Source of the DNA: Deltaproteobacteria bacterium
GTDB taxonomy: Bacteria; Desulfobacterota; Desulfobacteria; Desulfobacterales; Desulfatibacillaceae
Direction of reading: 5' to 3'
NCBI GenBank assembly: GCA_016235345.1
Contig: JACRLG010000028.1
Location: 126,001 to 190,000, forward strand
DNA length: 64,000 nt
Below are positions 19,612-43,069 of this stretch, piece after piece. The stretch's first letter is position 1, and each line of letters starts with the position of its first letter. A program made the translations under genes and the position numbers. The notes under the pieces are model-generated. The model was given only the letters and a program-made list of their open reading frames with translations, was not told the DNA's origin and did not search any database.

Positions 19612-20460
19612 TTAATACTCTTTGGGCATGGTGTTCAACTGCTCCAGCGTAAACACCGGGCCGTCCTTGCACACGAAGTCATTGCCGATGTTGCACCTGC
19701 CGCACATGCCTATACCGCATTTCATGCGGTTTTCAAGGCTCATTATTATGTGGTCGCGGGCGTAGCCGAGCTTATCCAGAACCGGCTGGGTGAACTTTAT
19801 CATAACGGGCGGCCCGCACACTATGGCGTAGGTGTCCGGGTCCCCCTTGGGGGCCTTGGCCTCGGTTATGGCCGGGACGAAACCCGTGTTGTACTTCCAG
19901 TCCGGGTGGCCCGCCGCCGAATCCACGGTGATGTGCATTTTGATGTCGTCCCGCGCCTCCCATGCGGCCAGCTCGTCGCGGTATAAAAGCATCCCCGGAG
20001 TGCGCGCGCCGTAAACCACGTGGATGTCCCTGAATTTCTTACGGTTGGCCGGGTCCAGCATCATCACGATGCTTGACCGGAGGGTGGTGAAGGCGAAGCC
20101 GCCGCCGATTATCACCACGTTTTTGCCTTCCAGCACCTCCCATGGGTACCAGTTGCCCAGAGGCCCCCGGATGCCCATGACGTCGCCCTCCACCATGTCG
20201 TGAAGGGCCGAGGACACCAGGCCCACCTTGTTCACGGTGAACATGACGAAGCCCTTTTCGGTGGGGGAGCTTGCGATTCCTATGGGGATTTCGCCCTTTC
20301 CGGTCACCGAAAGCTCGGCGAACTGGCCGGCCTTGTACTGAAAACGGTTTTCGTCCTCGGGGTTCACGTAAACGAAGCGGAAGGTTTTCTGGTTCCGGTC
20401 TTCGGTTTCCACCGTGACCCTGTCGATTTTAACCGGAATCGGAAGATATGGATTTTCCAC
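19612..20460 (-). CDS. flxA: FAD/NAD(P)-binding oxidoreductase, FlxA / hydrogenase gamma-subunit type
   Basis: 282 residues with a ferredoxin-NADP reductase fold: an FAD-binding barrel (AGQFAELSV, PIGIASSPTEKG), an NAD domain (VIIGGGFAFTTLRS, IVCGPPVMI) and a C-terminal [2Fe-2S] motif CGIGMCGRCNIGNDFVC. It would exchange electrons between NAD(P)H and the iron-sulfur chain of partner subunits. The gene follows flxB with repeat copy F between them. With flxD-C-B it matches the FlxABCD set described for sulfate reducers. Sulfhydrogenase gamma subunits are close relatives, but no hydrogenase catalytic subunit is present. Confidence 0.85.
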   Translation of the reverse strand: MENPYLPIPVKIDRVTVETEDRNQKTFRFVYVNPEDENRFQYKAGQFAELSVTGKGEIPIGIASSPTEKGFVMFTVNKVGLVSSALHDMVEGDVMGIRGPLGNWYPWEVLEGKNVVIIGGGFAFTTLRSSIVMMLDPANRKKFRDIHVVYGARTPGMLLYRDELAAWEARDDIKMHITVDSAAGHPDWKYNTGFVPAITEAKAPKGDPDTYAIVCGPPVMIKFTQPVLDKLGYARDHIIMSLENRMKCGIGMCGRCNIGNDFVCKDGPVFTLEQLNTMPKEY

Positions 20461-20500
20461 CGTCGTTAGCCTCGAACTGTCTGTTAAAAAATGAGGTTAC

Positions 20501-20628
20501 TTAAGGCCGACTAAAAACGATGAAATGCAAGGAATGCGAAAAGCCAATGAGTAAGCGTACTTTTCGTACGTGACGGAATTGGCTTTGAAGCATGACACAG
20601 CAGTTCGCGTTTTTGGGCGGCCGGTTAA
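20501..20628 (+). repeat. Modular palindromic repeat, copy F
   Basis: Type-1 copy with AAGCCAATGAGTAAGCGTAC and CGTACGTGACGGAATTGGCT arms. It sits inside the flx operon, and its right edge overlaps the flxB stop codon (TTA at 20625-20627). Confidence 0.88.
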
Positions 20629-21707
20629 AGACTGCAAGCGTTATCCGGTTCGTATTCATTCATCAAGGATGCTATCCGGCGGATGTCTATGTTCACCGGG
20701 CAATGGATCACGCACCTGCCGCAGCCGGTGCAGTGGACGCCGTTCCCGTACCTGTCGCCGTAATATTTCAGCTTGTGCATGAACCTCTGGCGCACCCTGC
20801 CGGTCTTTTCGGGGCGCGGGTTGTGGCCCGACCCGTGCAGGGTGAAGAGCGGAAACATGCACGAGTCCCAGTTTCGCAAGCGCACGCAGTCTGTTCCGTG
20901 CGTTTCGTCCTGAATGTCGAAGCACCAGCAGGTGGGACAAAGATAGGTGCAGGTTCCGCAGTTGATGCAGGCAAAGGCCGCGTCCGCCCAGAACGGGGCG
21001 TCGTATAGGGCGAGGATGGTCTTTTTGCCAATCTTATCCGTATTGATTACGGAGGAGATTTTCCCCTCGGCCTCGCGCCGGGCGTCGGACAGGGCGGCTT
21101 CGGCATCGGCCCCTGCTTCGGTTGTCCAGCCTGCGGCCAGCGCCAGGGCCTCGCCCTTTTCCGTCAGCACCTGGGTCAGGAAGCCGTCTTCATGATCCGT
21201 GAGAAGGATGTCCAGGCCCGTTGTGTCGCAGGGGCCGCCCCCAGTGGAGGTGCAGAAACAGGTGGAGCGCGGATCATTGCAGGAGTGGCCCACGAAGGTC
21301 GTGGCCCCGTAGCCTTTTGTCCACCAGGGGTCCTTGTACTCCGCGTTGTCGAAGTTGGGCGCAACCAGGGTATAGGCCCGCGCGTCGCAGGGCCTTATTC
21401 CGAAAACCGCCCTTGGGGAAAAGTCCTTTTCTATCTCCTTGTAAACGTGGTGATCTTCCCTGGCGGGGTCGAGGCAAGCCCTGAACATCTTTTCCGAGGG
21501 CGGGTAGACCACGCCCTTGGCCGAAAGCCGGGTGTTGGCCACCGACATCTCCGGCATGACCCCAGGCGGAAGAAGGCCCATGACGTGATGAAAGCGCTCC
21601 TGGACGGGCCCGTAGACGCGGTATGAACCGGCAAGGGCCGCAACGCCGTCGGCAAAATTTTCGCGCGAAACAAAAAGGTGTCGCATGGGCATACCTTGCG
21701 AAGTCAC
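20625..21707 (-). CDS. flxB: 4Fe-4S dicluster protein, FlxB / hydrogenase beta-subunit type
   Basis: 360 residues. The C-terminal part has two ferredoxin-type motifs, CINCGTCTYLCPTCWCFD and CTGCGRCVIHCPVNID, and the middle holds GIRPCDARAYTL and GHSCNDPRSTCFC, as in the beta subunits of sulfhydrogenases and in Flx-type complexes. It carries electrons between FlxA and other subunits (inference from family). The start codon overlaps the flxC stop by 4 nt (ATGA type), so the two are translationally coupled. Confidence 0.85.
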   Translation of the reverse strand: MTSQGMPMRHLFVSRENFADGVAALAGSYRVYGPVQERFHHVMGLLPPGVMPEMSVANTRLSAKGVVYPPSEKMFRACLDPAREDHHVYKEIEKDFSPRAVFGIRPCDARAYTLVAPNFDNAEYKDPWWTKGYGATTFVGHSCNDPRSTCFCTSTGGGPCDTTGLDILLTDHEDGFLTQVLTEKGEALALAAGWTTEAGADAEAALSDARREAEGKISSVINTDKIGKKTILALYDAPFWADAAFACINCGTCTYLCPTCWCFDIQDETHGTDCVRLRNWDSCMFPLFTLHGSGHNPRPEKTGRVRQRFMHKLKYYGDRYGNGVHCTGCGRCVIHCPVNIDIRRIASLMNEYEPDNACSL

Positions 21708-22651
21708 TTTATGAATTCCTGGGGGTCATCCGGCCTGAAGGTGTCCAAAGGAGGCCTTACGCCCGGCAGCACCCCGGCCTCAAAGCCGTAAAGCTCCTCG
21801 CAGTCCTTGACGAGCTTTTTGGTGAACTGCCGCACCGGGATTCCCAGGGGGCAGGCCCGCTCGCAGGCCCCGCAGTCCGTGCACCGGCCCGCGCAGTGAA
21901 AGGCCCTTAGAAAATGAAAGGTGCGGGTGTCGGTTTTGTCCAGGCTTTTGCCCACCCACTGGGGCCTGGAATCGTCAACAAAACAGGTGGGGCAGTAGCA
22001 AAGGGGGCAGGCGTTGCGGCAGGCGTAACACCTTATGCAGCCCGCGATCAGTTCCTCGAAGTGGGTCCAGCGCTCGGCGGCGCTCATGGCCTCCACCGCG
22101 TTCACGTCCGAAAAGCGGTCCGCGTTCTCCTGCTCCGGCACGGGGGGGGTGGCCATCTCGTCGAAAATCACCGGGTTCCTGTGAGTGCAGGTGACGCAGT
22201 TGTCCTGAAGCACGTTTTTCTTGGGTATGGACATCTCGCCGGAGGCGGTGGATACCCCAAGGGTCTTGCCCTGATCCAGGGCGTCGATGACGTCCCTGCC
22301 CGCCTTGGAGCGAAGCTTTCTGCGATCCGCCATGCCGGTGCACGGGACCCCTATGATGTAGAGGTTTTCCCGTTTGACCTGGTTTTCCAGGAGGTGATTG
22401 ACGATGTTTCTGCTGTCGCAGCCCTTGGCGGTGATGCCGATCCTTCCGGAAAGGCCCGGAAGGTAATTGGCGAGGTTCGCGCCGCAGAAGCCGTTGAAGA
22501 CCAGGAGGTGCGCGTCATCCGCACTGCGGATGAGGCAGGGCTCGGCCATGAGGGGAATGGTCCCCTCCCGGAAACCGATAACGCAGTCCACCACGTTTTC
22601 CGACAGGAGCCGGGCGGCGATGGCCTGGATTTTCTCGCTCACGTCTTCCAT
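21704..22651 (-). CDS. flxC: 4Fe-4S protein, FlxC-like
   Basis: 315 residues. The N-terminal part (CVIGFREGTIPLMAEPCLI, GITAKGCDSRNIVNHLLEN) resembles F420-hydrogenase beta-like modules. The C-terminal part has cysteine clusters GCIRCYACRNACPLCYCPTC and CAGRCTDCGACERACPLGIP for two [4Fe-4S] centres; a further CVTCTHRNP is near residue 151. The gene starts 1 nt after the flxD stop and overlaps flxB, which places it firmly in the operon. The assignment as FlxC rests on order and content. Confidence 0.78.
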   Translation of the reverse strand: MEDVSEKIQAIAARLLSENVVDCVIGFREGTIPLMAEPCLIRSADDAHLLVFNGFCGANLANYLPGLSGRIGITAKGCDSRNIVNHLLENQVKRENLYIIGVPCTGMADRRKLRSKAGRDVIDALDQGKTLGVSTASGEMSIPKKNVLQDNCVTCTHRNPVIFDEMATPPVPEQENADRFSDVNAVEAMSAAERWTHFEELIAGCIRCYACRNACPLCYCPTCFVDDSRPQWVGKSLDKTDTRTFHFLRAFHCAGRCTDCGACERACPLGIPVRQFTKKLVKDCEELYGFEAGVLPGVRPPLDTFRPDDPQEFIK

Positions 22652-25249: not shown

Positions 25250-25444
25250 GCAGCCTGTTGGAAAAGGCTGGAAGCAAAGCCTGATGAAAAACGAGAAGTT
25301 GCAAGGCCAAACTGCAAGCCAATGAGTAAGCGTACCCGCCCAAGAAATCGCAGAGTTCTTGGGCTAAATCAGGATGTTCGTACGTGACGGAATTGGCTTT
25401 GAAGTGCGAACACTGCCAAATCGCGTTTTTCGACAGGCTGTTAG
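25250..25444 (+). repeat. Modular palindromic repeat, copy H (with loop insert)
   Basis: The longest copy. Normal ends and ATTGGCTT arm, but the central GCGTAC...CGTACG hairpin is opened by about 42 bp (CCGCCCAAGAAATCGCAGAG onward) that is the reverse complement of the insert in copy A. It ends 14 bp before the mvhD start. Confidence 0.88.
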
Positions 25445-25458
25445 CTCAAAGGAGTTTC

Positions 25459-25860
25459 ATGGACGACAACATCCCCCACGTGGTGGGCTTCTGCTGCCAG
25501 AACGCCATAATCGACGACCCGACGCTAAAGGCCGCCGAACGGCTTGATTACGAGCCGGAAGTGCGGGTGGTCTTCGTGCCCTGCTCCAGCAAGGTGGAGA
25601 CCCTTTCCATAATAAAGGCCTTCGAGGCCGGTGCTGAAGGCGTCTTCGTGTTCGGCTGCGACGGAACCCATTGCCGCATGACGGACGGCAACAAGAGGGC
25701 GCAGCGCACCGTCAACTACGCCAAAAGCCTTCTTACCCAGGCCGGAATCGATGAAGCGCGCCTTTCCATGTTCACCATCGAGAGCGGCGAGTGGAAAAAC
25801 TTCCGGGAAGCGGCGGGCCACATGGCCCAAAGAATCGCCTCCCTTCCGCAAGGTCAGTGA
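25459..25860 (+). CDS. MvhD-like iron-sulfur subunit, divergent
   Basis: 133 residues of the MvhD/FlpD family, the [2Fe-2S] subunit that passes electrons to or from HdrA. It has VPCSSKVETLSIIKAFEAGA and GVFVFGCDGTHC, but the N-terminal CxxC of the family is reduced to FCCQNA (second Cys missing), so its cluster may be altered or absent. AAAGGAG supports the ATG at 25459. First gene of the ten-gene operon, 9 bp before the gltB-like gene; this position points to a link between Hdr-type electron flow and the glutamate-synthase-like proteins. Confidence 0.82.
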   Translation: MDDNIPHVVGFCCQNAIIDDPTLKAAERLDYEPEVRVVFVPCSSKVETLSIIKAFEAGAEGVFVFGCDGTHCRMTDGNKRAQRTVNYAKSLLTQAGIDEARLSMFTIESGEWKNFREAAGHMAQRIASLPQGQ

Positions 25861-25869
25861 AACAAGCCC

Positions 25870-27291
25870 ATGCCGAAAAAATACCATATAGATATCAAGG
25901 AAGCCCCTGCCCGTTTCGTGCCGGTGGGAAGAAGCACCATCCTCGACTGGGAGGGCGGGTGCCTTCGCTGCTTCAAGTGCGTGAAGCGCCTGTGCATCTA
26001 CGACGCTTACAACAAGCGTGATTTCGACGCCACGCGCCTTGCCGACACCATAGACTCGGTGTGCAAGAACTGCCTTCGGTGCGTCCAGATGTGTCCGGGC
26101 CGGGTGATCTCGAAAAAGGAAAACCCGGAATACAAGCTTCTGGGCGACTCCTACTGGACCGCCGACATTATCGTGAAACAAAGCGAAATGGCGGCCACCG
26201 GCAAGATTCCAGTTTCCGGCGCGGGCTACAGAGGCCCATTCACCGGCCCCGGATTCGACTCGATGTGGACGGACATGTCCGAAATCGTGCGCCCCACCCG
26301 GGACGGCATCCACGGACGCGAGTACATAAACACCTCGGTTTCCCTTGGCCGCAAGCGCCAAAACCTTTCCTTCGACGAAAGCGGAGCGCCCGTCATAGCC
26401 CCCCTTTGTGAGCACGAAATTCCCGTTCCCATGATCTTCGCGGCGCCGCCTTTGAACATCCTGAGCGAAAACGTGCTTAAAACCTTTGCGCTTGCTGCGG
26501 AAAACCTGGGAATGCTCACCGAGATACCGGTGAAAAACTGGGGGGACTTCCTTACGCCCCACCTGAAAAGTCTGGTCCCGGTAATGGGGATTAACGACGT
26601 TGACGCCTGGGCCGATCTCATAGCCAAGGTTCCCATGGCGGGGTTCGTCGCCAACGAGGTGGTTCCGGACGACTTCGTGGAAAAATTCAAGGCCCGTTTT
26701 CCGGGCACCCTTTTAATGGTGAAGATTCCCGCCGATGAGCGGGCCCCGCGCCGGGTTCCCGCCTTTGCCGAGGAGGGCACCGACGTCATGTGCCTTGTGG
26801 CGGACGTCAACGGAAAGGGCATGGGGGAAAACTCCGGGAAATTCATCAGCCAGATCACGCGTGAGGTCCACGGCAGGATGGTGGACCTTGGCGTGAGGGA
26901 CTCCGTCACCCTTCTCCTGCAGGGAGGCGTGGCCCTGGCCGAGCACGTGGCCAAGGCTGTGATCTGCGGCGCGGACGCTGTGATGGTGGACCTTCCGGTG
27001 CTGCTGGCCCTGGAATGCACTTACTGCGGGCGCTGCAACAAGGGGCTGGCCTGCCCGGTCCAACTGGAAAACGTGAACCCCGAATGGGGCAAAAAGCGCG
27101 TGGGCAACTTCATGGCGGCCTGGCGCAACCAGATAATAGAGGTTCTGGGCGCAATGGGCATACGCGAAATAAGGCGTCTGCGAGGGGAAGTGGGCAGGGC
27201 CATGTTTTTCGATGATCTGGAGCGCGACACCTTCGGGCGTCTTTTCGGCAAGAAAAAGGCGGTGCCTGCCAGCGAAGGAGCCAATCCATGA
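25870..27291 (+). CDS. Degenerate glutamate-synthase-like iron-sulfur flavoprotein
   Basis: 473 residues. Two ferredoxin-type motifs lie at the N-terminus (CLRCFKCVKRLCIY near 34 and CKNCLRCVQMCPGRVI near 65), then a TIM-barrel region alignable to the FMN domain of its neighbour: LLLQGGVALAEHVAKAVICG corresponds to the barrel strand that carries GGIRTPADVAKAIMLG there, and CTYCGRCNKGLACPVQL to the 3Fe-4S loop. The hallmark GAKPGxGG and TGEGG motifs are missing, so it has probably lost glutamate synthase chemistry and serves as an electron-transfer or structural paralogue (inference). It overlaps the next gene by 4 nt, implying a fixed-ratio complex. Confidence 0.72.
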   Translation: MPKKYHIDIKEAPARFVPVGRSTILDWEGGCLRCFKCVKRLCIYDAYNKRDFDATRLADTIDSVCKNCLRCVQMCPGRVISKKENPEYKLLGDSYWTADIIVKQSEMAATGKIPVSGAGYRGPFTGPGFDSMWTDMSEIVRPTRDGIHGREYINTSVSLGRKRQNLSFDESGAPVIAPLCEHEIPVPMIFAAPPLNILSENVLKTFALAAENLGMLTEIPVKNWGDFLTPHLKSLVPVMGINDVDAWADLIAKVPMAGFVANEVVPDDFVEKFKARFPGTLLMVKIPADERAPRRVPAFAEEGTDVMCLVADVNGKGMGENSGKFISQITREVHGRMVDLGVRDSVTLLLQGGVALAEHVAKAVICGADAVMVDLPVLLALECTYCGRCNKGLACPVQLENVNPEWGKKRVGNFMAAWRNQIIEVLGAMGIREIRRLRGEVGRAMFFDDLERDTFGRLFGKKKAVPASEGANP

Positions 27292-28766
27292 ATTTTCAGC
27301 CATCCCCCTTCGTCGCGCCCCCGGAAGTCATAACCACCAAGAGCCGCTTCCGCAACGCCATAGGCAAGTACCGCATCCGCCGCTCCAACGCCTGCATCGC
27401 CTGCGGCCGCTGTATTGAAGCCTGCCCCCACGGCGTGCATCATATCAGAAACCACAAGCTCGCCCCGCCCGACGACTACCTTTGCGTGGGTTTCGAGTGC
27501 AAAAAATGCGTGGACGAGTGCCCCCAGAAGGCCCTTAGCCTCGACGTCAACCCGCTCATGGAGGTGATCGGCGACAGGCGCTGGACGCCCGATCTTCTCG
27601 TTTCCACCTGGTACATGGCCGAAACCGGCGAGATGCCCAAGGGAGGGGTGGAGACCGAAACCGGCGGCTCCGACGGCGGCTTCGACAAGCTCCGGTTCGT
27701 CTACAAGAACGAGCTTCCTGCGGACTTCAACCCGGCGGATTTCAACACGTCCATAAAGCTCAACCGCAAGGACGACGGCAGGGACGAAGGCGTAATCGGG
27801 CTTCCCATCTACGGCGGCGGCATGAGCTACGGCTCCATCAATCTCATGGCCATCATCGCCCGCGCGCGGGCCTGGAAGGAGTGGAACTCCTTCACCTGCA
27901 CCGGAGAGGGCGGATACCCCGAAGAGCTTTTCCCCTACGACGACCATGTCATCACCCAGGTGGCCACCGGGCTTTTCGGCGTGCGGGAGGAGACCATCCA
28001 GCGGGTGCGCATGGTGGAATTCAAATACGCCCAGGGCGCGAAACCCGGCCTTGGCGGGCATCTGTTAGGCGACAAGGTGACCCCAAAGGTGGCCCGGATG
28101 CGGGAGGCGGTGCCGGGCAACCCGCTCTTTTCGCCCTTCCCGTTCCACTCGGTCTATTCGGTGGAAGACCACAAGAAGCACATCGACTGGATCAAGGAAA
28201 TCAACCCCCGCGCCATGGTGTCGGTGAAGGTTTCCACCCCCTCGGACGTGGACATGGTGGCCGTGGGCTCCTACTTCGCAGGCGCGCACATCGTGCATCT
28301 GGACGGCTCATACGGCGGAACCGGGGCCGCTCCCGACATCGCCAAGAAAAACATCGCCATGCCCATCGAGTACGGCATCATAAAGGTCCACAATTTCCTC
28401 AAAGACGAGGGAATCCGTGACGCTATAACCGTCATCGCTTCGGGCGGAATCCGCACCCCGGCTGATGTGGCGAAAGCCATAATGCTTGGGGCCGACGGCG
28501 TGGTGATAGGCACAAGCGAGATGGTGGCATTGGAGTGCATCCGCTGCTCCTACTGCGAGTCGGGCCGGGGCTGCGCGCGTGGTATAGCCTCCACCGACCC
28601 TGAGCTTTCCACCATGATAGACGTTGAGTGGGCCACAAAGCGCCTTGTGAACATGCTGGCCGCATGGCGCACGGAGCTTTGCAGGATCATGGCCAGAATG
28701 GGGATGAAGGATATACGCGAAATGGTGGGACGAACGGACTGTCTGAGGCATTTAGATTATGAATAG
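27288..28766 (+). CDS. Glutamate synthase core subunit (ferredoxin plus FMN synthase domain)
   Basis: 492 residues. The N-terminus has two [4Fe-4S] motifs (CIACGRCIEACPHGVH near 37 and CKKCVDECPQKA near 72). The rest is the glutamate synthase FMN barrel: GGGMSYGSINLMA, CTGEGGYPEEL, GAKPGLGGHLLG, VSVKVSTPSD, HLDGSYGGTGAAP, VIASGGIRTPADVAKAIMLG, and the 3Fe-4S loop CIRCSYCESGRGCARGIAST. This is the archaeal-type split subunit that reductively aminates 2-oxoglutarate with ammonia channelled from the amidotransferase. The amidotransferase subunit follows 15 bp downstream. No NADPH-dependent small subunit is present in the window. Confidence 0.88.
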   Translation: MNFQPSPFVAPPEVITTKSRFRNAIGKYRIRRSNACIACGRCIEACPHGVHHIRNHKLAPPDDYLCVGFECKKCVDECPQKALSLDVNPLMEVIGDRRWTPDLLVSTWYMAETGEMPKGGVETETGGSDGGFDKLRFVYKNELPADFNPADFNTSIKLNRKDDGRDEGVIGLPIYGGGMSYGSINLMAIIARARAWKEWNSFTCTGEGGYPEELFPYDDHVITQVATGLFGVREETIQRVRMVEFKYAQGAKPGLGGHLLGDKVTPKVARMREAVPGNPLFSPFPFHSVYSVEDHKKHIDWIKEINPRAMVSVKVSTPSDVDMVAVGSYFAGAHIVHLDGSYGGTGAAPDIAKKNIAMPIEYGIIKVHNFLKDEGIRDAITVIASGGIRTPADVAKAIMLGADGVVIGTSEMVALECIRCSYCESGRGCARGIASTDPELSTMIDVEWATKRLVNMLAAWRTELCRIMARMGMKDIREMVGRTDCLRHLDYE

Positions 28767-28781
28767 GGACCGAACCTTATC

Positions 28782-31409
28782 ATGAATACACCTTCTTTCG
28801 CCGATCTTATAAGCCGCTCCCGGCGACGCCTTTATAATGATGTCATGCCCCCAATGCGCTCCAAGGACGCAGAGGAAGGCGGCTGCGGAGTCACCGGCTT
28901 CGCCTGCTCGGTCCCGGTTGGCGGAAAGCACATATTCGAGCCGAGCCGTCTCATGCACAACCGGGGAAACGGCAAGGGCGGCGGCATAGCGGCGGCGGGG
29001 CTGGTGGCCGAAGACCTTGGGGTCACCCGCGAAATCCTGGACAATTCCTTCCTGGTCCAGGTGGCCTACCTCGATCTTGACGCCCGCAAAAAGGCCGAGG
29101 AGGAGGGGATTTTCCCCTGCTGCGAGGTTCTGGCGGCAAGCCAGATTCCAACCCTGGATGATTACCGGGAAATCCCCGGCCTTGAGGTGCGCCCTCCCGA
29201 CGTGTGGCGGTATTTCGTGCGGGTCAAGCCCGACGTGCTCTCCCGTTTCGCGCAGGAAAACGGCCTGGAAAACCAGGACCCGGACAAGGTTGAAAACGAG
29301 TGCCTGTGGCAAAACACCATAAGATTCAACAAGGCGTTCTACGACCCCCACGGCGACAAGCTGGCCTTCATCGTGAGCCAGGGCCGCAACATAATGATTT
29401 TGAAGATAGTGGGCTACGCCGAGGAGGTCGCCAAATACTACCGCCTGGACGACGTGCGCGCCCACATCTGGATAGCCCACCAGCGCTACCCCACCAAGGG
29501 CCGGGTGTGGCACCCCGCCGGGGCTCACCCCTTCATGGGGCCTGACATAGCCCTGGTCCACAACGGCGACTTCGCCAATTATCATTCGGTGTGCGAGTAT
29601 TTGCGCCAGAAAAACATCCACCCCAACTTCCTTACGGACACGGAAGTCGCGGTTCTGATGTTCGACCAGTTGAGCCGCACCTACGGCTATCCGCTTGAGT
29701 ACGTGATAGAGGCGCTCGCCCCCACCACGGAAATGGACTTCGACCAGCTTCCCGAAGACAAGCAGCGGGTCTACCGCGAACTTGGCCACATGCACATCCA
29801 CGGCTCGCCGGACGGCCCCTGGTTTTTCATCATCGCAAGAAACAACCTTGCAAAAAAGCAGTTCCAGCTTATCGGCATAACCGACACCGCAATGTTGCGG
29901 CCCCAGGTTTTCGCCCTTCACGACGGCGCGGTCCAGGTGGGGCTGGTGTGCTCGGAAAAGCAGGCTCTCGACGCCACCCTTGCAAGCCTTGCCGCCGAAG
30001 ACCCAAGGGTCTGCCCGGTTGCGGACAAATACTGGAACGCGCGCGGCGGAAGCCACACAGACGGCGGGGCCTTCATCTTCACGGTGGCGGACGACCCGGA
30101 AAAGCCCGGCGAAAAAAGGCTCTCCTGCGCCGACAAGTTCGGGGCCGCCGTCCCCCTTCCCCAGGGCCAGGAGGAATGCGACGTAACCGTCGCTCCCAAG
30201 CCGCTGGCCGATTCGGCGGCGGTTTCGGCAAGCCTCGAAGCGCTTGCGAAAACCGGCGACGCGACCGGGATTTTCAGGGCGGTTACGGAAAAAATCGCCA
30301 CCGGCACCTTTGACGATCTTCGGGGCACTGCCTCGATTCTGGCCGAGATCGCCAAGAAGGGCGATGCGGAAAAGTCGGCGGTCATCGAGGCCCTCACGCT
30401 TCTGAACGACCGCCGTTACCCCACGGGAAAACTGAAGCGCCGCTCGGTTCTGGACATAATCCACAACACCCTGACCGATGTTTTCGACGCGGTGGCTCCC
30501 ATCGGCTCAGAAAGCGAAAGCCGCTTTCGGCTCATCACCCTTCAGACAGTCAATAACCTTGTCGCCCCGCACTGCGCCGACGCTGTGCTTGTTCTGAACG
30601 CGGCGGGTTTCGAGCCGGAGGGCGATGACTGCGACGCGCGCCTGCAGGTGGCGGCCTTTAAACTCGGCTGGCGCAAATTCATCTGCTGCGGATACCGGGG
30701 ACAACGCTTCCTTGGCTGCGGCATGGGGCCGAACACCGATGACGTTGAATTCGACGTTTACGATTCCTCCGGCGACTACATGGCAAGCGGCATAGACGGC
30801 ATGACCATCAGGGTCCACGGAAACGCACAGGACCAGTTGGGCCAGATCATAAAGCGCGGAAAATTCGTGGTTTTCGGCGACGTGGGCCAGACCTTTTTGT
30901 ACGGGGCCAAGGGCGGCGAAATCTACGTCATGGGCAACGCCGCAGGACGGCCCCTCATCAACGGCGTGGGACGGCCAAGGGTGGTCATCAACGGCACGGC
31001 GCTTGATTATCTGGCCGAATCCTTCATGGCGGGCGACCCCCACAAGGGGGGAGGCTTCGTTGTGCTGAACGGCGTCACATTCGACAACGACGGAAAAGTG
31101 GTGCCGCTTTCCAACCCTTATCCGGGCAGCAATCTCTTTTCGCTGGCGTCCGGCGGGGCCATCTACATCCGGGACCCTCACCGCTCGCTGGTTGACGAGC
31201 AGCTTAACGAGGGCGCTTTCATGGAACTCGATAAGGCCGACTGGCGGCTCATCGCTCCTTATCTGGCGGAGAACGAGCGGCTTTTCGGAATCGAGGTGGA
31301 ACGCGACCTTCTTTCCGTGGACGGCGTCGTCAGGGAGCCTGCCCAGGTTTACCGCAAGGTGGTGCCGAAGAAGGTCTACATGTTGGCAAGAGAGTCTGTG
31401 GAAGAGTAG
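28782..31409 (+). CDS. Glutamate synthase amidotransferase and GXGXG-domain subunit
   Basis: 875 residues. An N-terminal class II glutaminase domain: the nucleophile is Cys35 in EEGGCGVTGF, so about 34 residues would have to be removed to free it, as in bacterial GltB. Further motifs are HNRGNGKGGG, HQRYPTKGRVWHPAGAHPF and LVHNGDFANYHS. A middle linker of about 150 residues is followed by a C-terminal GXGXG beta-helix domain (GKFVVFGDVGQTFLYGAKGG, GNAAGRPLINGVG, DPHKGGGFVVLNG). It thus fuses two of the three archaeal-type glutamate synthase pieces; the third is the upstream gene. The ribosome site is weak; the ATG at 28845 is an alternative. Confidence 0.87.
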   Translation: MNTPSFADLISRSRRRLYNDVMPPMRSKDAEEGGCGVTGFACSVPVGGKHIFEPSRLMHNRGNGKGGGIAAAGLVAEDLGVTREILDNSFLVQVAYLDLDARKKAEEEGIFPCCEVLAASQIPTLDDYREIPGLEVRPPDVWRYFVRVKPDVLSRFAQENGLENQDPDKVENECLWQNTIRFNKAFYDPHGDKLAFIVSQGRNIMILKIVGYAEEVAKYYRLDDVRAHIWIAHQRYPTKGRVWHPAGAHPFMGPDIALVHNGDFANYHSVCEYLRQKNIHPNFLTDTEVAVLMFDQLSRTYGYPLEYVIEALAPTTEMDFDQLPEDKQRVYRELGHMHIHGSPDGPWFFIIARNNLAKKQFQLIGITDTAMLRPQVFALHDGAVQVGLVCSEKQALDATLASLAAEDPRVCPVADKYWNARGGSHTDGGAFIFTVADDPEKPGEKRLSCADKFGAAVPLPQGQEECDVTVAPKPLADSAAVSASLEALAKTGDATGIFRAVTEKIATGTFDDLRGTASILAEIAKKGDAEKSAVIEALTLLNDRRYPTGKLKRRSVLDIIHNTLTDVFDAVAPIGSESESRFRLITLQTVNNLVAPHCADAVLVLNAAGFEPEGDDCDARLQVAAFKLGWRKFICCGYRGQRFLGCGMGPNTDDVEFDVYDSSGDYMASGIDGMTIRVHGNAQDQLGQIIKRGKFVVFGDVGQTFLYGAKGGEIYVMGNAAGRPLINGVGRPRVVINGTALDYLAESFMAGDPHKGGGFVVLNGVTFDNDGKVVPLSNPYPGSNLFSLASGGAIYIRDPHRSLVDEQLNEGAFMELDKADWRLIAPYLAENERLFGIEVERDLLSVDGVVREPAQVYRKVVPKKVYMLARESVEE

Positions 31410-31456
31410 GCGGTTGCCAAAAACATAAGCTGATGCAAGGGCTTCAAGGAATAAAT

Positions 31457-32020
31457 ATGAACCTCGAAAACGAAGCAGTCGCTTTCGATACATCTTACGC
31501 GGCAGGCTGCGCCGAAAAAAGCGGCGTGGACATCTTCGCCTGCTACCAGTGCGAAAAATGCACCAACGGCTGCCCGCTTGCCTTCGCCATGGACGTTATG
31601 CCCCACGCCATTATCCGCATGATGCAGGCGGGGCTTATGGATGAGGTGGAAGATGCCGTGACTCCCTGGGTGTGCGCGTCCTGCGAGACCTGCGTCACCC
31701 GCTGCCCGAACAATATCGACGTGCCGCGCCTGATGGATTTTCTGAAGCAGGAGGCCATCAAAAAGGACATCGAACCAAAGGTTCCAGAAGTGGCGGCTTT
31801 CCATAAAACATTCATGGACAACATCCGGCTTTTCGGGCGGGTCCAGGAAACGGCCCTCATGGGGGCTTATCAACTTAAAGGCATCCGGCAGGCCGCCGAC
31901 CTCATTAGCGCCCCGGTCATCGAAAACGTCAAGCTGGGCCTCAAAATGGTGGCCAAGGGCAGGATGTCGCTTATTCCCAAGTTCGCCAAGGGGAAGAGCC
32001 GCATAAAGAAGTTGTTCTAA
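31457..32020 (+). CDS. hdrC: Heterodisulfide reductase subunit C-like protein
   Basis: 187 residues with two classical [4Fe-4S] motifs, CYQCEKCTNGCPL near residue 29 and CASCETCVTRCPN near 73, plus the VMPHAIIRMMQAG helix typical of HdrC. It relays electrons between HdrA and HdrB; cytoplasmic. AAGGA upstream sets the ATG at 31457. hdrB follows after 12 bp. Confidence 0.9.
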   Translation: MNLENEAVAFDTSYAAGCAEKSGVDIFACYQCEKCTNGCPLAFAMDVMPHAIIRMMQAGLMDEVEDAVTPWVCASCETCVTRCPNNIDVPRLMDFLKQEAIKKDIEPKVPEVAAFHKTFMDNIRLFGRVQETALMGAYQLKGIRQAADLISAPVIENVKLGLKMVAKGRMSLIPKFAKGKSRIKKLF

Positions 32021-32032
32021 GGAGAAATCTTG

Positions 32033-32857
32033 ATGGACTTGACCTATTATCCCGGCTGCTCCCTCGAAGCCACGGCCAGGGATTACGACGAGAGCATAAG
32101 GGCGGTGTGCGAGGCCCTGGGGATACGGCTCCACGAGCTTATAGACTGGACCTGCTGCGGCGCGACTTCCGCGCATGTGACGAGCGACAGGCTTTCGGTC
32201 CTGCTTCCGGCCTCGAACCTTCCGGCGGCGGAAAAGGCGGGCTACGACGTTCTGGCTCCATGCCCACTGTGCTTCAACCGCTTGAAGCGCGCACAGAAGC
32301 CGGTAGGCTCGAACGTTTTGGTGACCGACCTCAACTCGCTCCTTTCGCGGAATGAAGTTCTTGCCTCCATAAAAAGCGCCAAAAAGGCCGATCTTTCGGG
32401 CATCAAGGCTGTATGCTATTACGGATGCATGGCCAACCGGCCCCCCAAGGCGCTTGAAAGCGGCGACTGCGAAAACCCGGTCGGCATGGACAGGGTGGCC
32501 GAAGCCTGCGGAGTCACCGTGATCGACTGGTCCTACAAGACCGACTGCTGCGGCGCGAGCTTCGCGGTGTCCCGCCCAGACATCATGACCACACTGGTGC
32601 GCAAGCTCTACGACAGGGCCCTGGAAGCCGGGGCCGGGTGCATTCTGGTATCATGCCAAATGTGCCAGGCCAACCTCGACATGTACCAGGACCGCATGAA
32701 TAGGGACTTGGGAACGTGCTACGACATTCCCATCATCTACATAAGCGAGATAGCGGGAATGGCCCTGGGCCTTGAAAAGCCGGAAGGATGGTTCAAGCGG
32801 CACCTCACGGACCCGATGAATTTTTTGAGGTCCAAGGGCGTGATCAAAGCTGCATAA
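32033..32857 (+). CDS. hdrB: Heterodisulfide reductase subunit B-like protein
   Basis: 274 residues with two cysteine-rich CCG domains. The first runs from YYPGCSLEATARDYDES to WTCCGATSAH and CPLCFNRLKRA; the second has CYYGCMANRPP, DCCGASFAVSRPDIM and CQMCQANLDMYQ. In methanogens these bind two non-cubane [4Fe-4S] clusters that split the heterodisulfide CoM-S-S-CoB. Bacterial homologues must use another disulfide or electron acceptor, which is not known for most. AAGGAG lies before the ATG at 32033. It overlaps neither neighbour but keeps operon spacing. Confidence 0.9.
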   Translation: MDLTYYPGCSLEATARDYDESIRAVCEALGIRLHELIDWTCCGATSAHVTSDRLSVLLPASNLPAAEKAGYDVLAPCPLCFNRLKRAQKPVGSNVLVTDLNSLLSRNEVLASIKSAKKADLSGIKAVCYYGCMANRPPKALESGDCENPVGMDRVAEACGVTVIDWSYKTDCCGASFAVSRPDIMTTLVRKLYDRALEAGAGCILVSCQMCQANLDMYQDRMNRDLGTCYDIPIIYISEIAGMALGLEKPEGWFKRHLTDPMNFLRSKGVIKAA

Positions 32858-32896
32858 GGCGCTTTTGTCTTTTAGTCTGTCAGGACGGCGGAGCAA

Positions 32897-35800
32897 ATGA
32901 GCGAGACGATAAAAAAAGACCCCACGGGCGCGGTAATGGTGGTGGGCGGCGGCATCGCGGGGATACAGGCGAGCCTTGATCTGGCCGATTCCGGCTACCT
33001 TGTATATCTGGTGGAGCGTAAAAGCTCCATCGGCGGGCGCATGAGCCAGCTGGACAAGACCTTTCCCACCAACGACTGCGCCATGTGCATGGTCTCGCCC
33101 AAGCTCATAGGCGTGGCGGGCCATCCCAACATCCGCATCCTTACGCTTTCGGAGCTTGTGGGCGTTACCGGGACACCCGGTTATTTCACGGCAACAGTGA
33201 AAAAGCATCCCCGTTACGTGGACGAGAGCCGTTGCGTGGGCTGCGGGCTGTGCGCGGAAAAATGCCCCTCAAAGGTTTCCGACCCATACAACCAGGGGCT
33301 AACGAAGCGCCGCGCCATTCACTTACGGTATCCCCAGGCCGTGCCCCTTGTCTACTCCATTGACGCCGAACACTGCCTTCATCTCACAAAGGGCAAGTGC
33401 GGCAACTGCGAAAAGGTTTGCAAGCAAAACGCCATCAATTTCGACCAGAAGGAAGAAGTGGTCGATATTCCCGTGGGCAGCGTGATCCTGGCTCCGGGCT
33501 TCGATCTTTTCGAGGCTGAAAAGGCAGGAGAGTACGGCTACGGGCGGTATGAAAACGTCATAACCACCATGGAGTTCGAGCGCTGCCTTTCCGCCACCGG
33601 CCCCACGGACGGCCACATCACACGTCCTTCCGACAAGACCGTGCCCAAGAAAATCGCGTGGATACAGTGCGTGGGCTCACGCGAGCGCCTGCGTGAGGGC
33701 CGGGCCTTCTGTTCTTCGGTCTGCTGCATGGCCTCTGCCAAGGAGGCCGTGGTGGCGAAAAGCCATCATCCCGAAATCGAACCCACCATTTTCTACATGG
33801 ACCTGCGCGCCCAGGGAAAGGGCTTCGACGCCTACTGCGAGAGGGCCAGGGAAACCAACGGCGTAAAGTACGTGCGGAGCATGATCTCCCGGGTGGCGCA
33901 AAATCCGGTCACCAAGGATTTGATTTTAACGCACCTTGACCCCGCCACCGGAAAGCCCGTGGATGAGAGCTTCAACATGGTGGTGCTGGCGGTGGGCATG
34001 AAGCCTTCGGCTGAGTCGGCGGAACTCGCGTCGCGCCTTGGAATCGAGGTCAACGAGTTCGGTTTCGCCAAGACCAAGCCGGAAGCGCCCCTCGTGACTT
34101 CCAAGGAAGGCGTTTACGTGTGCGGCGCTTTTGCGGGCCCCAAGGACATTCCGGAGACCGTGGCCGAGGCGTCCGGTGCTGCGGTGCGGGCCATGGAGCC
34201 AATAGCGGGGGTGAAGGGCTACGAAATTTCCACTCCGGCAAAGCCCGCCGAACGCTCCCTTTTCGGCAAGAAAACCCGGGTGGGCGTTGTGGTGTGCTGC
34301 TGCGGAACCAACATTGCCGGGGTGGTGGACGTTGAGGCCGCCGCAGCCTACGCCCGGACCCTCCCGGAAGTGGAAGCGGCGGAAGTGATGCTTTTCGCCT
34401 GCTCCACTGATTCCAAGGCCGCCATCAAGGACATGATCGTAAAGAACCAGTTGAACCGAATGGTCGTGGCGTCATGTTCCCCCAAGACCCACGAGGAGCT
34501 TTTCCGCTCCACCCTGGTGGAGGCTGGCCTCAATCCGTATCTGATAGAGATGGCCAACATAAGGAACCAGTGCTCCTGGGTCCATGCAAAAGACGGCGCG
34601 GCTGCGACTGAAAAGTCGAAAGAGCTTATCCGCATGTCCGTGGGGAGAGTCAAGCAGCTCACCCCCATCGAGGCCAAATCCGTGCCGGTTGTTCACACGG
34701 CGCTGGTGGTGGGAGGCGGATTGAGCGGTATGACTGCGGCCCTAACTCTTGCGGGCCAGGGCTACGTTACCCACCTTGTGGAAAAGGACGAGGCCCTTGG
34801 CGGTCGCTACAAGAACTCCGAGCCACTGGCTGACTGGGACCAGGCAAGGCACGTCGAGGACCTCATCAGCCGGGTGAACGCCCACCAGAAGGTTCGGGTA
34901 CATACCGGCTCGGTGGTGGAGAAGTCAACCGGGCAGGTGGGCAACTTCGTAAGCCGGATAAAGACGGCAGACGGAGCGGAAGTGATTGTGAAGCACGGAG
35001 CCGGGGTCATCGCCACGGGAGCGGTGGAGGCGGCCACAACCGAATATCTTTTCGGCAAAAGCGACAGGGTTCTGACCCAGACGGCGCTTTCCGGACGGAT
35101 CAAGGCGGGCAGGGCTTCCAAGGGAAAGGGCCTCACCGTCATGATCCAGTGCGTGGGAAGCAGGAACGCGGAGCGCCCCTACTGCTCGCGCACCTGCTGC
35201 ACCCAGGCGGTGGTGAACGCCATCAAACTCAAGGAATCAAACCCCGCAGGCGACGTCATTGTCCTTTACCGGGACATAAGAACCTTCGGCTTCATGGAGC
35301 TTTTGTACGAAAAGGCCCGGAAACTGGGAGTGGTGTTCATCCGGCACGAGGCTGAAAATCCGCCCGAGGCATTCATGGAAGGCGGGGCGCTCAAGGTCCG
35401 TTTCACGGAACCGGCATTGGGGCGCAGGATGACGGTGGCCCCGGATCAACTGGTGCTTTCCACGGGCCTTGACCCGAACCCGGCCTCGAAGCAGATTTCA
35501 TCAGTTTTCAAGCTGACGGTGGACCCACAGGGATTTTTCCTTGAGGCCCACCCCAAGCTCCGGCCCCTAGATTTCACATCCGACGGACTCTTCCTCTGCG
35601 GCGACGCCCACGGACCCAAGTTCCCGGAAGAATCCATCGCGCAGGCTCTTGGAGCGGCGGGGCGGGCGGTGACCATACTTTCACGCGACGCCATAACCGT
35701 GGGGCCGGTTTCCGAGGTTGACCCGGAGCTTTGTGCGGCCTGCCTCACCTGCGTGCGCACCTGCCCCTATTCCATACCGGCCATCAACGAAAAGGGCGTC

Positions 35801-35935
35801 AGCTACATAGACCCGGCCCGTTGCAAGGGCTGCGGCATGTGCGCCGCCGAATGCCCTGTTGGGGCCATCTCGGTGCAGAATTGCAGCACAGGGCAGATTG
35901 AGGCGAAAATGTCCGCACTTTTCAGAACCCCTTAA
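32897..35935 (+). CDS. hdrA: Tandem HdrA-like flavoprotein (two FAD modules)
   Basis: 1012 residues against about 650 in the methanogen protein. Module 1 (1-455): FAD fold VVGGGIAGIQASLDLADSG, NDCAMCMVSPKL, ferredoxin CVGCGLCAEKCP near 112, CGNCEKVC near 166, and FCSSVCCMASAKEA. Module 2 (460-1012) restarts with the HdrA N-terminal domain VGVVVCCCGTNIAGVVDVE, a second FAD fold LVVGGGLSGMTAALTLAGQG near 600, a second YCSRTCCTQAV, and a C-terminal two-cluster ferredoxin (CAACLTCVRTCP near 945, CKGCGMCAAECP near 975). HdrA is the flavin-based electron-bifurcating subunit; two flavin sites in one chain suggest a built-in HdrA pair. Neighbours hdrC, hdrB and mvhD complete the complex. Confidence 0.9.
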   Translation: MSETIKKDPTGAVMVVGGGIAGIQASLDLADSGYLVYLVERKSSIGGRMSQLDKTFPTNDCAMCMVSPKLIGVAGHPNIRILTLSELVGVTGTPGYFTATVKKHPRYVDESRCVGCGLCAEKCPSKVSDPYNQGLTKRRAIHLRYPQAVPLVYSIDAEHCLHLTKGKCGNCEKVCKQNAINFDQKEEVVDIPVGSVILAPGFDLFEAEKAGEYGYGRYENVITTMEFERCLSATGPTDGHITRPSDKTVPKKIAWIQCVGSRERLREGRAFCSSVCCMASAKEAVVAKSHHPEIEPTIFYMDLRAQGKGFDAYCERARETNGVKYVRSMISRVAQNPVTKDLILTHLDPATGKPVDESFNMVVLAVGMKPSAESAELASRLGIEVNEFGFAKTKPEAPLVTSKEGVYVCGAFAGPKDIPETVAEASGAAVRAMEPIAGVKGYEISTPAKPAERSLFGKKTRVGVVVCCCGTNIAGVVDVEAAAAYARTLPEVEAAEVMLFACSTDSKAAIKDMIVKNQLNRMVVASCSPKTHEELFRSTLVEAGLNPYLIEMANIRNQCSWVHAKDGAAATEKSKELIRMSVGRVKQLTPIEAKSVPVVHTALVVGGGLSGMTAALTLAGQGYVTHLVEKDEALGGRYKNSEPLADWDQARHVEDLISRVNAHQKVRVHTGSVVEKSTGQVGNFVSRIKTADGAEVIVKHGAGVIATGAVEAATTEYLFGKSDRVLTQTALSGRIKAGRASKGKGLTVMIQCVGSRNAERPYCSRTCCTQAVVNAIKLKESNPAGDVIVLYRDIRTFGFMELLYEKARKLGVVFIRHEAENPPEAFMEGGALKVRFTEPALGRRMTVAPDQLVLSTGLDPNPASKQISSVFKLTVDPQGFFLEAHPKLRPLDFTSDGLFLCGDAHGPKFPEESIAQALGAAGRAVTILSRDAITVGPVSEVDPELCAACLTCVRTCPYSIPAINEKGVSYIDPARCKGCGMCAAECPVGAISVQNCSTGQIEAKMSALFRTP

Positions 35936-35958
35936 AAACTCAGGGGAAAGTTTTTATC

Positions 35959-36405
35959 ATGACTGAACAGTTTGAACCGGAAATCGTGGTCTTCTGCTGC
36001 AACTACTGCTCCTACGCGGCGGCGGACCTTGCGGGATCCATAAGAATGGATTACCCGCCCAACATAAAGATAATCCACGTGCCATGTTCGGGCCGGGTGG
36101 ACGCCATAACGCTTCTGCACACCCTGGAGGCCGGAGCCGACGGAGTGTACGTAACCGGCTGCATGGAGGGCGACTGCCACTTCACCACCGGCAATTACAA
36201 GGCCAAAAAGCGCGTGGCATACGTGAAAAAGATAATCGCGGATGCCGGGATCGAGCCCGAACGCGTGCAGATGTTCAACATATCGGCCTCCGACGCGCCG
36301 CTTTTCGCCCAGGTGGCCAATGACATGACGGAAATCATCCGCAAGCTGGGGCCAAACCCGCTCAAGGCGGACAAGAAGAATAACCCGGCTGAAAAAGCCG
36401 CCTAG
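35959..36405 (+). CDS. mvhD: MvhD family iron-sulfur subunit
   Basis: 148 residues with all expected motifs: FCCNYCSYAAADLAG, VPCSGRVDAIT and GVYVTGCMEGDCHFTTGNYK. It is the normal Cys form of the subunit that links HdrA to an electron donor or acceptor; the corresponding residue is Sec in flxD. Placed 23 bp after hdrA and 15 bp before metV, which matches the HdrABC-MvhD-MetVF arrangement of acetogens. Confidence 0.92.
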   Translation: MTEQFEPEIVVFCCNYCSYAAADLAGSIRMDYPPNIKIIHVPCSGRVDAITLLHTLEAGADGVYVTGCMEGDCHFTTGNYKAKKRVAYVKKIIADAGIEPERVQMFNISASDAPLFAQVANDMTEIIRKLGPNPLKADKKNNPAEKAA

Positions 36406-36420
36406 GAAGGGAGCCATTTC

Positions 36421-37095
36421 ATGATAGTGGCGGAACACAAGCCCATCAGGGAGCTTCTGGCCCTTGTGGAGGGCTGCGACAAAATACTGATGGCGGGCTG
36501 CAAGGGCTGCGTTTCGGTCTGTAACGCCGGCGGCCAGAAGGAAGTGGCTATTTTGGCCTCTGCCCTTCGCATCGCGCGGAAAAAAGCGGGCAGGCCCATC
36601 GAGATCACCGAGCTTACCCTTGACCGCCAGTGCGAGCCGGAATTCATCGAGTGGCTGGAGGAGCCCATAAAGAAAAGCGGCGCGCAGGCTGTGATGTCCC
36701 TGGCGTGCAGCATCGGCCCCCAGTACATCGCGGAAGCCTATCCGGGGCTTATGGTGGTTCCCGGCCTCAACACCACCTTCATGGGCGGCACCGAAAAGCA
36801 CGGAATATGGGCCGAGTACTGCTCCTCCTGCGGAAACTGCGGGCTGGTCAATTTCGGCGGCCTCTGCCCCGTCACCCGCTGCGCCAAGGGCCTTTTGAAC
36901 GGCCCCTGCGGCGGCTCGGTGGATGGCACCTGCGAGGCCAACCCTGACACGCCCTGCATCTGGGACATGATCTACGAGCGCTTAAAGGGCCTTGGGCAGC
37001 TTGACCGCCTGGAAAAAGCAATCGGCCCCAAGGACTGGTCAACAAGCCTTTCGGGCGGCCCCCGGAAGATCGTGAGGGAGGACCTTACCCTGTGA
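36421..37095 (+). CDS. metV: Methylenetetrahydrofolate reductase-associated zinc protein MetV
   Basis: 224 residues. The N-terminal part (KILMAGCKGCVSVCNAGGQKE written in two pieces: GCKGCVSVC and AGGQKE) resembles MTHFR C-terminal-domain proteins, and the C-terminal cysteine array CSSCGNCGLVNFGGLCPVTR, AKGLLNGPCGG and CIWDMIYERL is diagnostic for MetV. It partners with MetF and connects it to Hdr/MvhD or ferredoxin in the reductive acetyl-CoA pathway or its reverse. Its stop overlaps the metF start by 4 nt. Confidence 0.88.
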   Translation: MIVAEHKPIRELLALVEGCDKILMAGCKGCVSVCNAGGQKEVAILASALRIARKKAGRPIEITELTLDRQCEPEFIEWLEEPIKKSGAQAVMSLACSIGPQYIAEAYPGLMVVPGLNTTFMGGTEKHGIWAEYCSSCGNCGLVNFGGLCPVTRCAKGLLNGPCGGSVDGTCEANPDTPCIWDMIYERLKGLGQLDRLEKAIGPKDWSTSLSGGPRKIVREDLTL

Positions 37096-37892
37096 GCACA
37101 TCAAGCCGTCTGAATGATACCCTGGCGGGCGGAGGCTTCGCTGTCCTTGCCTTGGCCCCTTCCGTGTGCGGAGTCGATCTTGCGCCCGTGAAAAACTTCG
37201 CCGCCTCGGTAAAAGGCAAGGTCACCGCCGTAATCGCCCCGGATAACGCGGGGGCTGCGGTTTCCGCCTCGGCCCTGGCGGTTTCCCGCACCCTTTTGTA
37301 CGCCGACGTGGAGCCGGTGATGTGCATGGCAACCCGCGACCGCAACCGCATGGCCCTGTGCGCCGATCTTCTGGGAGCCGGAGCCCTTGGAATCGTGAAC
37401 ATCTTCGTGACCAACGGCGTTCACCCGAACATCGGTTCCATGCCGCAGTCGATGCGGGTTTACGATGTGGACGCAGTGCTGATGCTTGCCATAGCCAACA
37501 AAATAATGGCCGAAAAGGCCCTGCCCAACGGAGAGGCCGTGACCGGTGAGCCCAATTTTTTCCTGGGCGCGACCGCCAACCCCTTTGTTAAATCGGCGGA
37601 GCTTCATCTTTCGGTGCTAAAAAAGAAGGCTGCGGCGGGTGCCAAGTATTTCATCACCTCGCCTGTTTACGATGTCGCGGCTTTTTCCTCCTGGATGGAC
37701 GGCATCAAAAAGGCGGGAATCGCCGACAAGTGCGCCGTAATCGCGGGCGTTCCCCTTTCCAAAGAAAAGTACGGGGACGAGGCCGTGGCCAAATGCCGCG
37801 AAACCATCGCCGCCGTCAAAAACGTGCCCGGTTGCCGTGGAGTGGCCATAATGGCCCCTGGCTATGAGGAAATGACTGCCCAGGTTTTATAG
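37092..37892 (+). CDS. metF: Methylenetetrahydrofolate reductase
   Basis: 266 residues, the short bacterial MetF barrel. It interconverts 5,10-methylene- and 5-methyl-tetrahydrofolate. Visible features: MCMATRDRNRMALCADLLGA, IVNIFVTNGVHP, FFLGATANPF, KYFITSPVYDVAAFSSWMD and GVAIMAPGYEEM. It starts at a GTG overlapping metV, so translation is coupled. As the last gene of the operon it is followed by a terminator-like hairpin. With HdrABC and MvhD upstream, NAD(P)H is probably not the only redox partner (inference). Confidence 0.9.
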   Translation: MSTSSRLNDTLAGGGFAVLALAPSVCGVDLAPVKNFAASVKGKVTAVIAPDNAGAAVSASALAVSRTLLYADVEPVMCMATRDRNRMALCADLLGAGALGIVNIFVTNGVHPNIGSMPQSMRVYDVDAVLMLAIANKIMAEKALPNGEAVTGEPNFFLGATANPFVKSAELHLSVLKKKAAAGAKYFITSPVYDVAAFSSWMDGIKKAGIADKCAVIAGVPLSKEKYGDEAVAKCRETIAAVKNVPGCRGVAIMAPGYEEMTAQVL

Positions 37893-39281: not shown

Positions 39282-39411
39282 CACGAAATCCTTGTAATCC
39301 CATCCACAAGCGAAAGGCAAGGACCACGGCCCGGAAAACCGGCGGGCATGAAATTTCGGAAGCCTTCAATCGGTCAATTCATCCCGATCTCTTATAAAAT
39401 GATGTTCTTTC

Positions 39412-41170: not shown

Positions 41171-41302
41171 AACCGTTCGGCCCTCCAAGCGGAATCATGC
41201 CCGAAAGGCTGTGCAAGGCCACAAGGCTTTTCCCGTATGCGGTCCGAGCCGTTGAACAATGATCACTGGGGCCTCTCGCCCCGCCCGAAAAGGAAGAAAC
41301 CC

Positions 41303-42553: not shown

Positions 42554-42565
42554 CGGGCGGCCTTT

Positions 42566-43069
42566 ATGGTTAAAGCGGCCCTGGGATACGGCTCCAAGAT
42601 CGGGGAGCGCGAGGAGAACCTGAAAAGGGGCCTGGCCCTTCTGGAAGAGGGCGGCCTTGTCAGGGTGCTTGCGGTGTCCCCCCTTTATTTCACCAAGCCC
42701 GTGGATTACGAGGACCAGGACTGGTTCGTGAACGGCGCGGCGGTGGTTGAGACTTCTCTTTCCCCACGCGAGCTTCTGGGGCTTCTGAAATCCGTGGAAA
42801 CAAGGGTGGGGCGCACTAAAGGCGGGGTGCGTTTCGGCCCAAGGGTGCTCGACATGGACATCCTTCTGTACGGGGATGAAACGGTGAGGGAGGACGACCT
42901 TGAAATCCCCCACCCGCGCATGGACAAAAGGCGTTTCGTTCTGGCCCCCCTTTGTGATATAGTGCCGGACTGGGTTCATCCCCTAAGGGGCATCACGGTT
43001 CGCGGCCTTCTGGACGCCCTTGGAGAAAACCCGGGCGACGTGGTCCCCTTGGGAAATGGTCCATCTTAG
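42566..43069 (+). CDS. folK: 2-amino-4-hydroxy-6-hydroxymethyldihydropteridine diphosphokinase
   Basis: Transfers pyrophosphate to the pterin alcohol in folate synthesis. 167 residues. ALGYGSKIGEREENL at the N-terminus, SPLYFTKPVDYEDQDWFVNG, and the signature GPRVLDMDILLYGD with the magnesium-binding Asp pair, then IPHPRMDKRRFVLAPL. It lies 12 bp after glyA, also a folate enzyme. A 162-bp palindromic element begins at its stop codon. Confidence 0.94.
   Translation: MVKAALGYGSKIGEREENLKRGLALLEEGGLVRVLAVSPLYFTKPVDYEDQDWFVNGAAVVETSLSPRELLGLLKSVETRVGRTKGGVRFGPRVLDMDILLYGDETVREDDLEIPHPRMDKRRFVLAPLCDIVPDWVHPLRGITVRGLLDALGENPGDVVPLGNGPS

Follow-up and report, generated by a model that had tools for sequence, protein, structure and literature searches.

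The open reading frame at positions 25870–27291 on the forward strand of the window (the whole 64,000-nucleotide stretch of DNA that was analysed) is real, its coordinates are correct, and it encodes a 473-residue protein that we name pGltB. In the reading that we consider fairly probable, pGltB, GltB and a GATase-GXGXG chain together make up a split glutamate synthase, of which pGltB would be an obligate subunit without catalysis of its own; it would occupy the position of the central domain and would usually be the site of electron entry as well. The pGltB operon would then encode a variant form of glutamate synthase in which one separate subunit is a pseudo-enzyme; no description of an MvhD-MetVF-pGltB-GltB cluster was found in the open-licence literature. 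The genes of the operon, listed below, all point the same way and together span 25384 to 37892.

25384–25860, forward: MvhD1, first copy of an MvhD/FlpD-family [2Fe-2S] protein (GTG start; Pfam FlpD, E = 3e-31)
25870–27291, forward: pGltB, non-catalytic GltB paralogue with a 2x[4Fe-4S] ferredoxin domain, a degenerate FMN-type TIM barrel and a C-terminal CxxCxxCx5C
27288–28766, forward: GltB, FMN synthase subunit with an N-terminal ferredoxin and intact TGEGG and GAKPGLGG (Pfam Glu_synthase, E = 7e-95; family alignment)
28782–31409, forward: GATase-GXGXG, class-II glutamine amidotransferase fused to a GXGXG beta-helix (Pfam GATase_6 and GXGXG; motifs in relatives)
31433–32020, forward: HdrC-like ferredoxin (Pfam Fer4_8; position)
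32030–32857, forward: HdrB-like CCG protein (TTG start; Pfam CCG, E = 7.5e-19)
32897–35935, forward: long-form HdrA2-like flavoprotein of 1012 aa (NCBIfam HdrA2, E = 8e-278, short of the curated cut-off)
35959–36405, forward: MvhD2, second copy of MvhD (Pfam FlpD, E = 7e-51)
36421–37095, forward: MetV-like protein, methylene-THF reductase C-terminal domain (Pfam PF12225, E = 2e-35)
37092–37892, forward: MetF-like protein without equivalents of the catalytic residues (Pfam MTHFR, E = 1.6e-10)

The initial annotation had recognised the upstream neighbour as MvhD, a 4-nt overlap with the gene at 27288 and a shared operon. All three are borne out (the overlap reads ATGA), and the operon extends beyond what had been described, to 37892, taking in MetV and the MetF-like gene. 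The 28782–31409 protein carries GltS domains 1 and 4 on a single chain: Cys35 within EEGGCGV and HNGDF at 260 identify the amidotransferase, and the GXGXG domain matches its Pfam model above the cut-off (E = 5e-12). The 27288 protein has both TGEGG and GAKPGxGG, as expected of an FMN synthase domain. At the far end of the operon, the MetV-like protein retains 13 of 13 invariant cysteines, while its MetF-like neighbour, a second 'dead' enzyme of the operon, has L, V and S in place of the catalytic E, D and Q of E. coli MetF, which we take to be E28, D120 and Q183. The catalytic E/D/Q are present in 33 of 39 aligned MetF sequences from relatives; in five relatives (L065, L066, L071, L072 and L074) the change is of D to H only.

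Genes flanking the operon were also inspected. Divergent from it, at 19612–22651 on the reverse strand, lie three genes for sulfhydrogenase/anaerobic sulfite reductase gamma- and beta-like proteins and a 4Fe-4S protein, possibly an NAD(P)H entry module. A CCG and Fer4_8 protein (GlcF/HdrD-like; 37965–39320, reverse strand) converges with the operon end, and a few kilobases downstream, at 41237–43069, ORFs judged by eye to be serine hydroxymethyltransferase- and folate pyrophosphokinase-like give a further hint of one-carbon metabolism.

The N-terminus of pGltB contains CxxCxxCx4C and CxxCxxCx3C motifs, and a C-terminal loop contains CxxCxxCx5C, which is absent from some members of the family. 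Profile alignment relates the pGltB family to the GltB family with a probability of 100 (E = 5e-54). In the 27288 protein the Pfam Glu_synthase model extends over residues 165–473 (E = 7e-95) and takes in almost all of the synthase region, but in pGltB it reaches only residues 329–431 (E = 3e-14), the last quarter of the barrel. In the profile alignment, a segment of about 44 residues bearing GAKPGLGG is deleted from pGltB and TGEGG is unconserved. Neither GAKPG nor [TS]GEGG occurs in any of 141 extracted pGltB sequences (which include one truncated copy of the window's own), so that by these motifs pGltB does not belong among the catalytic Glu_synthase FMN subunits. The initial annotation had described just this combination in pGltB, with ferredoxin motifs, barrel and cysteine loop kept and both synthase motifs lost, and the loss of the two motifs is shared by all of the ~140 relatives collected; no intact 2-oxoglutarate site was found in pGltB. 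The eight N-terminal cysteines are retained by all but two of the relatives among the 141 sequences. The most invariant stretch, unchanged in nearly all members, is PVSGxGYxGxF...WTDMSEIVRPTRDGIHGREYI, which lies outside the cluster sites. Conservation is lowest in the middle of the barrel, the part that holds the substrate loops, and the sequence there varies freely. An FMN-phosphate-type loop (GG...GAD) is still conserved, so that pGltB may yet bind FMN. No NCBIfam model matched the window's pGltB above cut-off and Pfam coverage is partial, and many genomes therefore probably carry a wrong annotation for this family. A PDB sequence search with pGltB gave weak matches only, to FMN enzymes.

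An AlphaFold model of pGltB alone, built from 33 family sequences, shows a confident eight-stranded barrel (pLDDT mostly >90), with the ferredoxin and motif regions at low confidence; its best fit is the GltS FMN domain (Z = 26, ~325 residues aligned). An intact barrel with a conserved phosphate-type loop is what might be expected if pGltB bound FMN and either catalysed another reaction or formed a second flavin site for bifurcation, but we regard this as very improbable given that the substrate-loop region in the barrel middle is the least conserved and that pGltB lacks the active-site insertion of ~44 residues.

The distribution of pGltB is that of a conserved subunit. Within the class, a full-length or long pGltB was found in 46 of 192 genomes (E < 1e-60), and the partner GltB clade is present in the same 46. 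A contig scan identified at least 558 relatives, and the best 80 of these, which were examined, come from Desulfobacterota, Chloroflexota, Nitrospiria, Latescibacterota, Poribacteria, Abyssobacteria and a Methanosarcinales MAG. Neighbourhoods were counted over 117 loci from the class and the contig-scan sample, a set biased towards closer relatives. GltB lies directly downstream of pGltB in 100 of the 100 loci with at least 900 bp of room, and in 13 of these the two are fused as one in-frame ORF; GATase-GXGXG is found downstream in 76 of 80 loci. Chance adjacency was rejected on the basis of the 100/100 neighbours and the 46/46 co-occurrence. Two archaeal loci (L207 and L216) with pGltB apart from GltB were considered as candidate orphans and rejected, since GltB is encoded elsewhere in both genomes (E < 1e-250). 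No genome with pGltB and without GltB was found among those examined; the two proteins are inherited strictly together. pGltB occurs in 17 of 58 genomes in the class to which the archaeal locus belongs, and in only 6 of 251 sampled genomes in the phylum of the Chloroflexota locus.

Phylogeny and selection agree with this picture. pGltB forms a single clade (SH-aLRT 100), and in an 82-row tree (quick search, midpoint root) pGltB, the partner GltBs and other GltBs fall on separate branches with support of 100, 99 and 94, respectively. The dN/dS values are 0.07–0.24 for pGltB and 0.075–0.17 for GltB; with the near-invariant motifs, the former led us to reject a decaying pseudogene. pGltB is thus one old clade and a conserved subunit rather than a decaying copy. 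The heteromeric partner lacking a synthase site proposed in the initial annotation is upheld by the single clade, the strict pairing, the fusions and the purifying selection. As to whether the clade always stands next to MvhD and GltB, GltB adjoins pGltB at all 100 sampled loci with room and lies apart from it in the two archaeal genomes, and MvhD is absent from the archaeal cassettes examined.

That absence bears on how electrons reach the enzyme. The initial annotation had cast pGltB as a conduit between MvhD and GltB, and, taken as its whole function, this would make pGltB a pure electron relay whose barrel is a leftover scaffold. The near-invariance of the eight ferredoxin cysteines is consistent with such a role, as is the closeness of MvhD: of the 84 loci with room in the class and contig-scan sample, 83 have it no more than 3.5 kb upstream, and in the window it is directly adjacent. 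The putative donor module, however, differs between lineages. Bacterial cassettes contain MvhD-MetV-MetF, with HdrABC added in some, but at 14 loci (archaeal and one Chloroflexota) a FAD_binding_4/FAD-oxidase_C/Fer4 protein lies directly upstream of pGltB in place of the MvhD module, usually after glutamine synthetase (examples are L206 2501–4348, L166 7107–8978 and L220 6229–8070, with 11 more loci). No MvhD was found in the cassettes of the archaeal relatives examined, which have this GlcD-like FAD/4Fe-4S dehydrogenase instead. Furthermore, in two Chloroflexota (L218 6758–9592, reverse strand, and L219 7651–10882) the ferredoxin cysteines have been lost from both pGltB and GltB, yet the pGltB barrel and its motif are kept; no donor gene was recognised beside either pair. 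The joint loss suggests that the two ferredoxins behave as a unit, and the retention of pGltB in their absence argues for a role that is independent of them. Since the most invariant part of the protein, the WTDMSEIVRPTRDGIHGREYI motif, holds no cluster site either, we think it unlikely that pGltB is purely a relay. The conduit proposal is partly borne out, by the proximity of MvhD, but as worded it is not supported, in view of the archaeal dehydrogenase swap and the cysteine-less Chloroflexota proteins. As a separate observation, a second and different GltB is encoded at L063 (2134–6127), just upstream of the cassette, beside a GXGXG + FAD/NAD oxidoreductase + ferredoxin fusion, and a GltB related to it is present in the window's own genome (G000:C23:281209–282189).

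The frequency of MetV (69/84) and MetF (59/84) at loci with room raises a different reading, namely that the complex is an energy-coupling methylene-THF reductase of the HdrABC-MvhD-MetVF type, a complex known from acetogens (PMC5736913), with borrowed GltS parts and with glutamate synthesis secondary. The retention of the MetF catalytic residues in 33 of 39 sequences fits this reading; the window's MetF-like protein, which is without them, does not. The GATase and synthase motifs are conserved, GlnA or GlnB adjoins the cassette in many loci, and pGltB-GltB stays where the donor module has been swapped or is absent, all of which make a primary reductase function quite improbable in our judgement. 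At 28 of the 75 loci with room, GlnA, the glutamine synthetase gene, shares the strand of the cassette, an indication of nitrogen assimilation. In the window itself, oxidation of methyl-THF by the MetF-like protein is improbable, which would make HdrABC-MvhD the likelier source of electrons there.

The proposed place of pGltB within a split glutamate synthase comes from structure prediction. In A. brasilense GltS the central domain comprises residues 423–780 and the FMN domain residues 781–1202; the central domain is a truncated barrel which lines the ammonia tunnel together with the FMN domain, and it has possibly arisen by duplication of the FMN barrel, although its origin is stated to be open (PMC8097209). 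A template-free AlphaFold (AF2) model of a naturally fused pGltB-GltB relative (986 aa, 40 sequences) has a pLDDT of 81.5 and a pTM of 0.84, the latter indicating a defined packing of the two halves. This model superposes onto residues 448–1184 of GltS (PDB: 1ea0) over ~595 residues (rmsd ~4, Z ~29), spanning the central and FMN domains together. Compared with the ~325 residues aligned for the single barrel, the ~595 imply that both halves must fit together. In Foldseek searches the fusion matches GltS with E values of 1e-25 to 1e-28 over 926–1000 columns and TMq of 0.47–0.50; any single barrel gives 1e-10, with TMq of 0.18–0.23. Taken with the A. brasilense domain boundaries, the superposition suggests the GltS central domain as the most likely counterpart of pGltB in position, a possibility that the initial annotation did not raise; the GltS-like packing of a barrel-like domain against the FMN domain is seen in the predicted model of this one fused relative. 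The AlphaFold pose may have been learnt from GltS training structures. Sequence comparison points only weakly to central-domain identity: the GltS central domain model (PF04898) scores the window's pGltB at E = 0.013, below cut-off, and one relative (G169) at 31 bits, above the cut-off of 22.8, and hhalign gives the central domain a probability of 76 for pGltB versus 46 for GltB. A match of the pGltB signature to a central-domain motif, good by eye, was rejected as non-significant (21 of 300 shuffles were equally good).

In the split glutamate synthase that we favour, pGltB would lie against GltB as the central domain lies against the FMN domain in canonical GltS, forming one wall of the ammonia tunnel and holding the GltB FMN barrel in its active pose. 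The GATase-GXGXG chain would hydrolyse glutamine, and the ammonia released would reach 2-oxoglutarate, at the FMN of GltB, through the tunnel that pGltB and GltB line. In most lineages electrons would enter via the 2[4Fe-4S] ferredoxin of pGltB and continue through the GltB clusters to the FMN, supplied by a swappable donor (MvhD-MetV-MetF, with or without HdrABC, in bacteria; the FAD/4Fe-4S dehydrogenase in archaea), and there 2-iminoglutarate would be reduced to glutamate.

Glutamate synthase is one of the main routes by which ammonia enters biomass. A recognisable, separate paralogue modelled at the central-domain position makes the duplication origin of that domain testable by phylogeny and structure. 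We put forward tentatively, as a possibility rather than an expectation, that pGltB is a living intermediate in this origin, in which a duplicated FMN barrel became a tunnel partner before truncation and fusion gave the form seen in canonical GltS, and that in these anaerobes the cassettes connect the enzyme directly to folate (MetVF), Hdr or FAD-dehydrogenase modules, bypassing NADPH and soluble ferredoxin. The swappable donors suggest that uncultivated anaerobes, sulfate reducers and an archaeal lineage among them, power nitrogen assimilation from one-carbon or Hdr electrons.

Several known systems share parts of this arrangement. Hdr, MvhD and 'glutamate synthase' are also linked in a sulfate reducer, Desulfobacterium autotrophicum, by HdrL, an HdrA/glutamate synthase fusion; in the part of that account relevant here, its annotation is that of an HdrA-type fusion protein that has an NADH site, and no pGltB-GltB pair is described (PMC2702500). 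The acetogen HdrABC-MvhD-MetVF complex (PMC5736913) has MvhD, MetV and MetF in common with these loci, and HdrABC too in the case of the window, but here they are in one operon with glutamate synthase and the window's MetF-like protein is without the catalytic residues. The single-domain GltS ORFs of Archaea (PMC8097209) likewise place GltS domains on separate chains, whereas the pGltB operon has GATase and GXGXG fused and an obligatory non-catalytic GltB paralogue. A further such system is the alpha chain of the canonical NADPH- or ferredoxin-dependent GltS (1ea0, 1ofd, 7mfm): the pGltB operon contains each of its GATase, FMN and GXGXG parts, and, like the pGltB set in its modelled pose, this chain has a degenerate FMN-type barrel beside the active one. 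In contrast to the canonical central domain (PF04898), pGltB is a separate gene with a full eight-stranded rather than truncated barrel and a ferredoxin of its own, its operon contains no GltD, and in sequence it can still readily be recognised as similar to its FMN sister.
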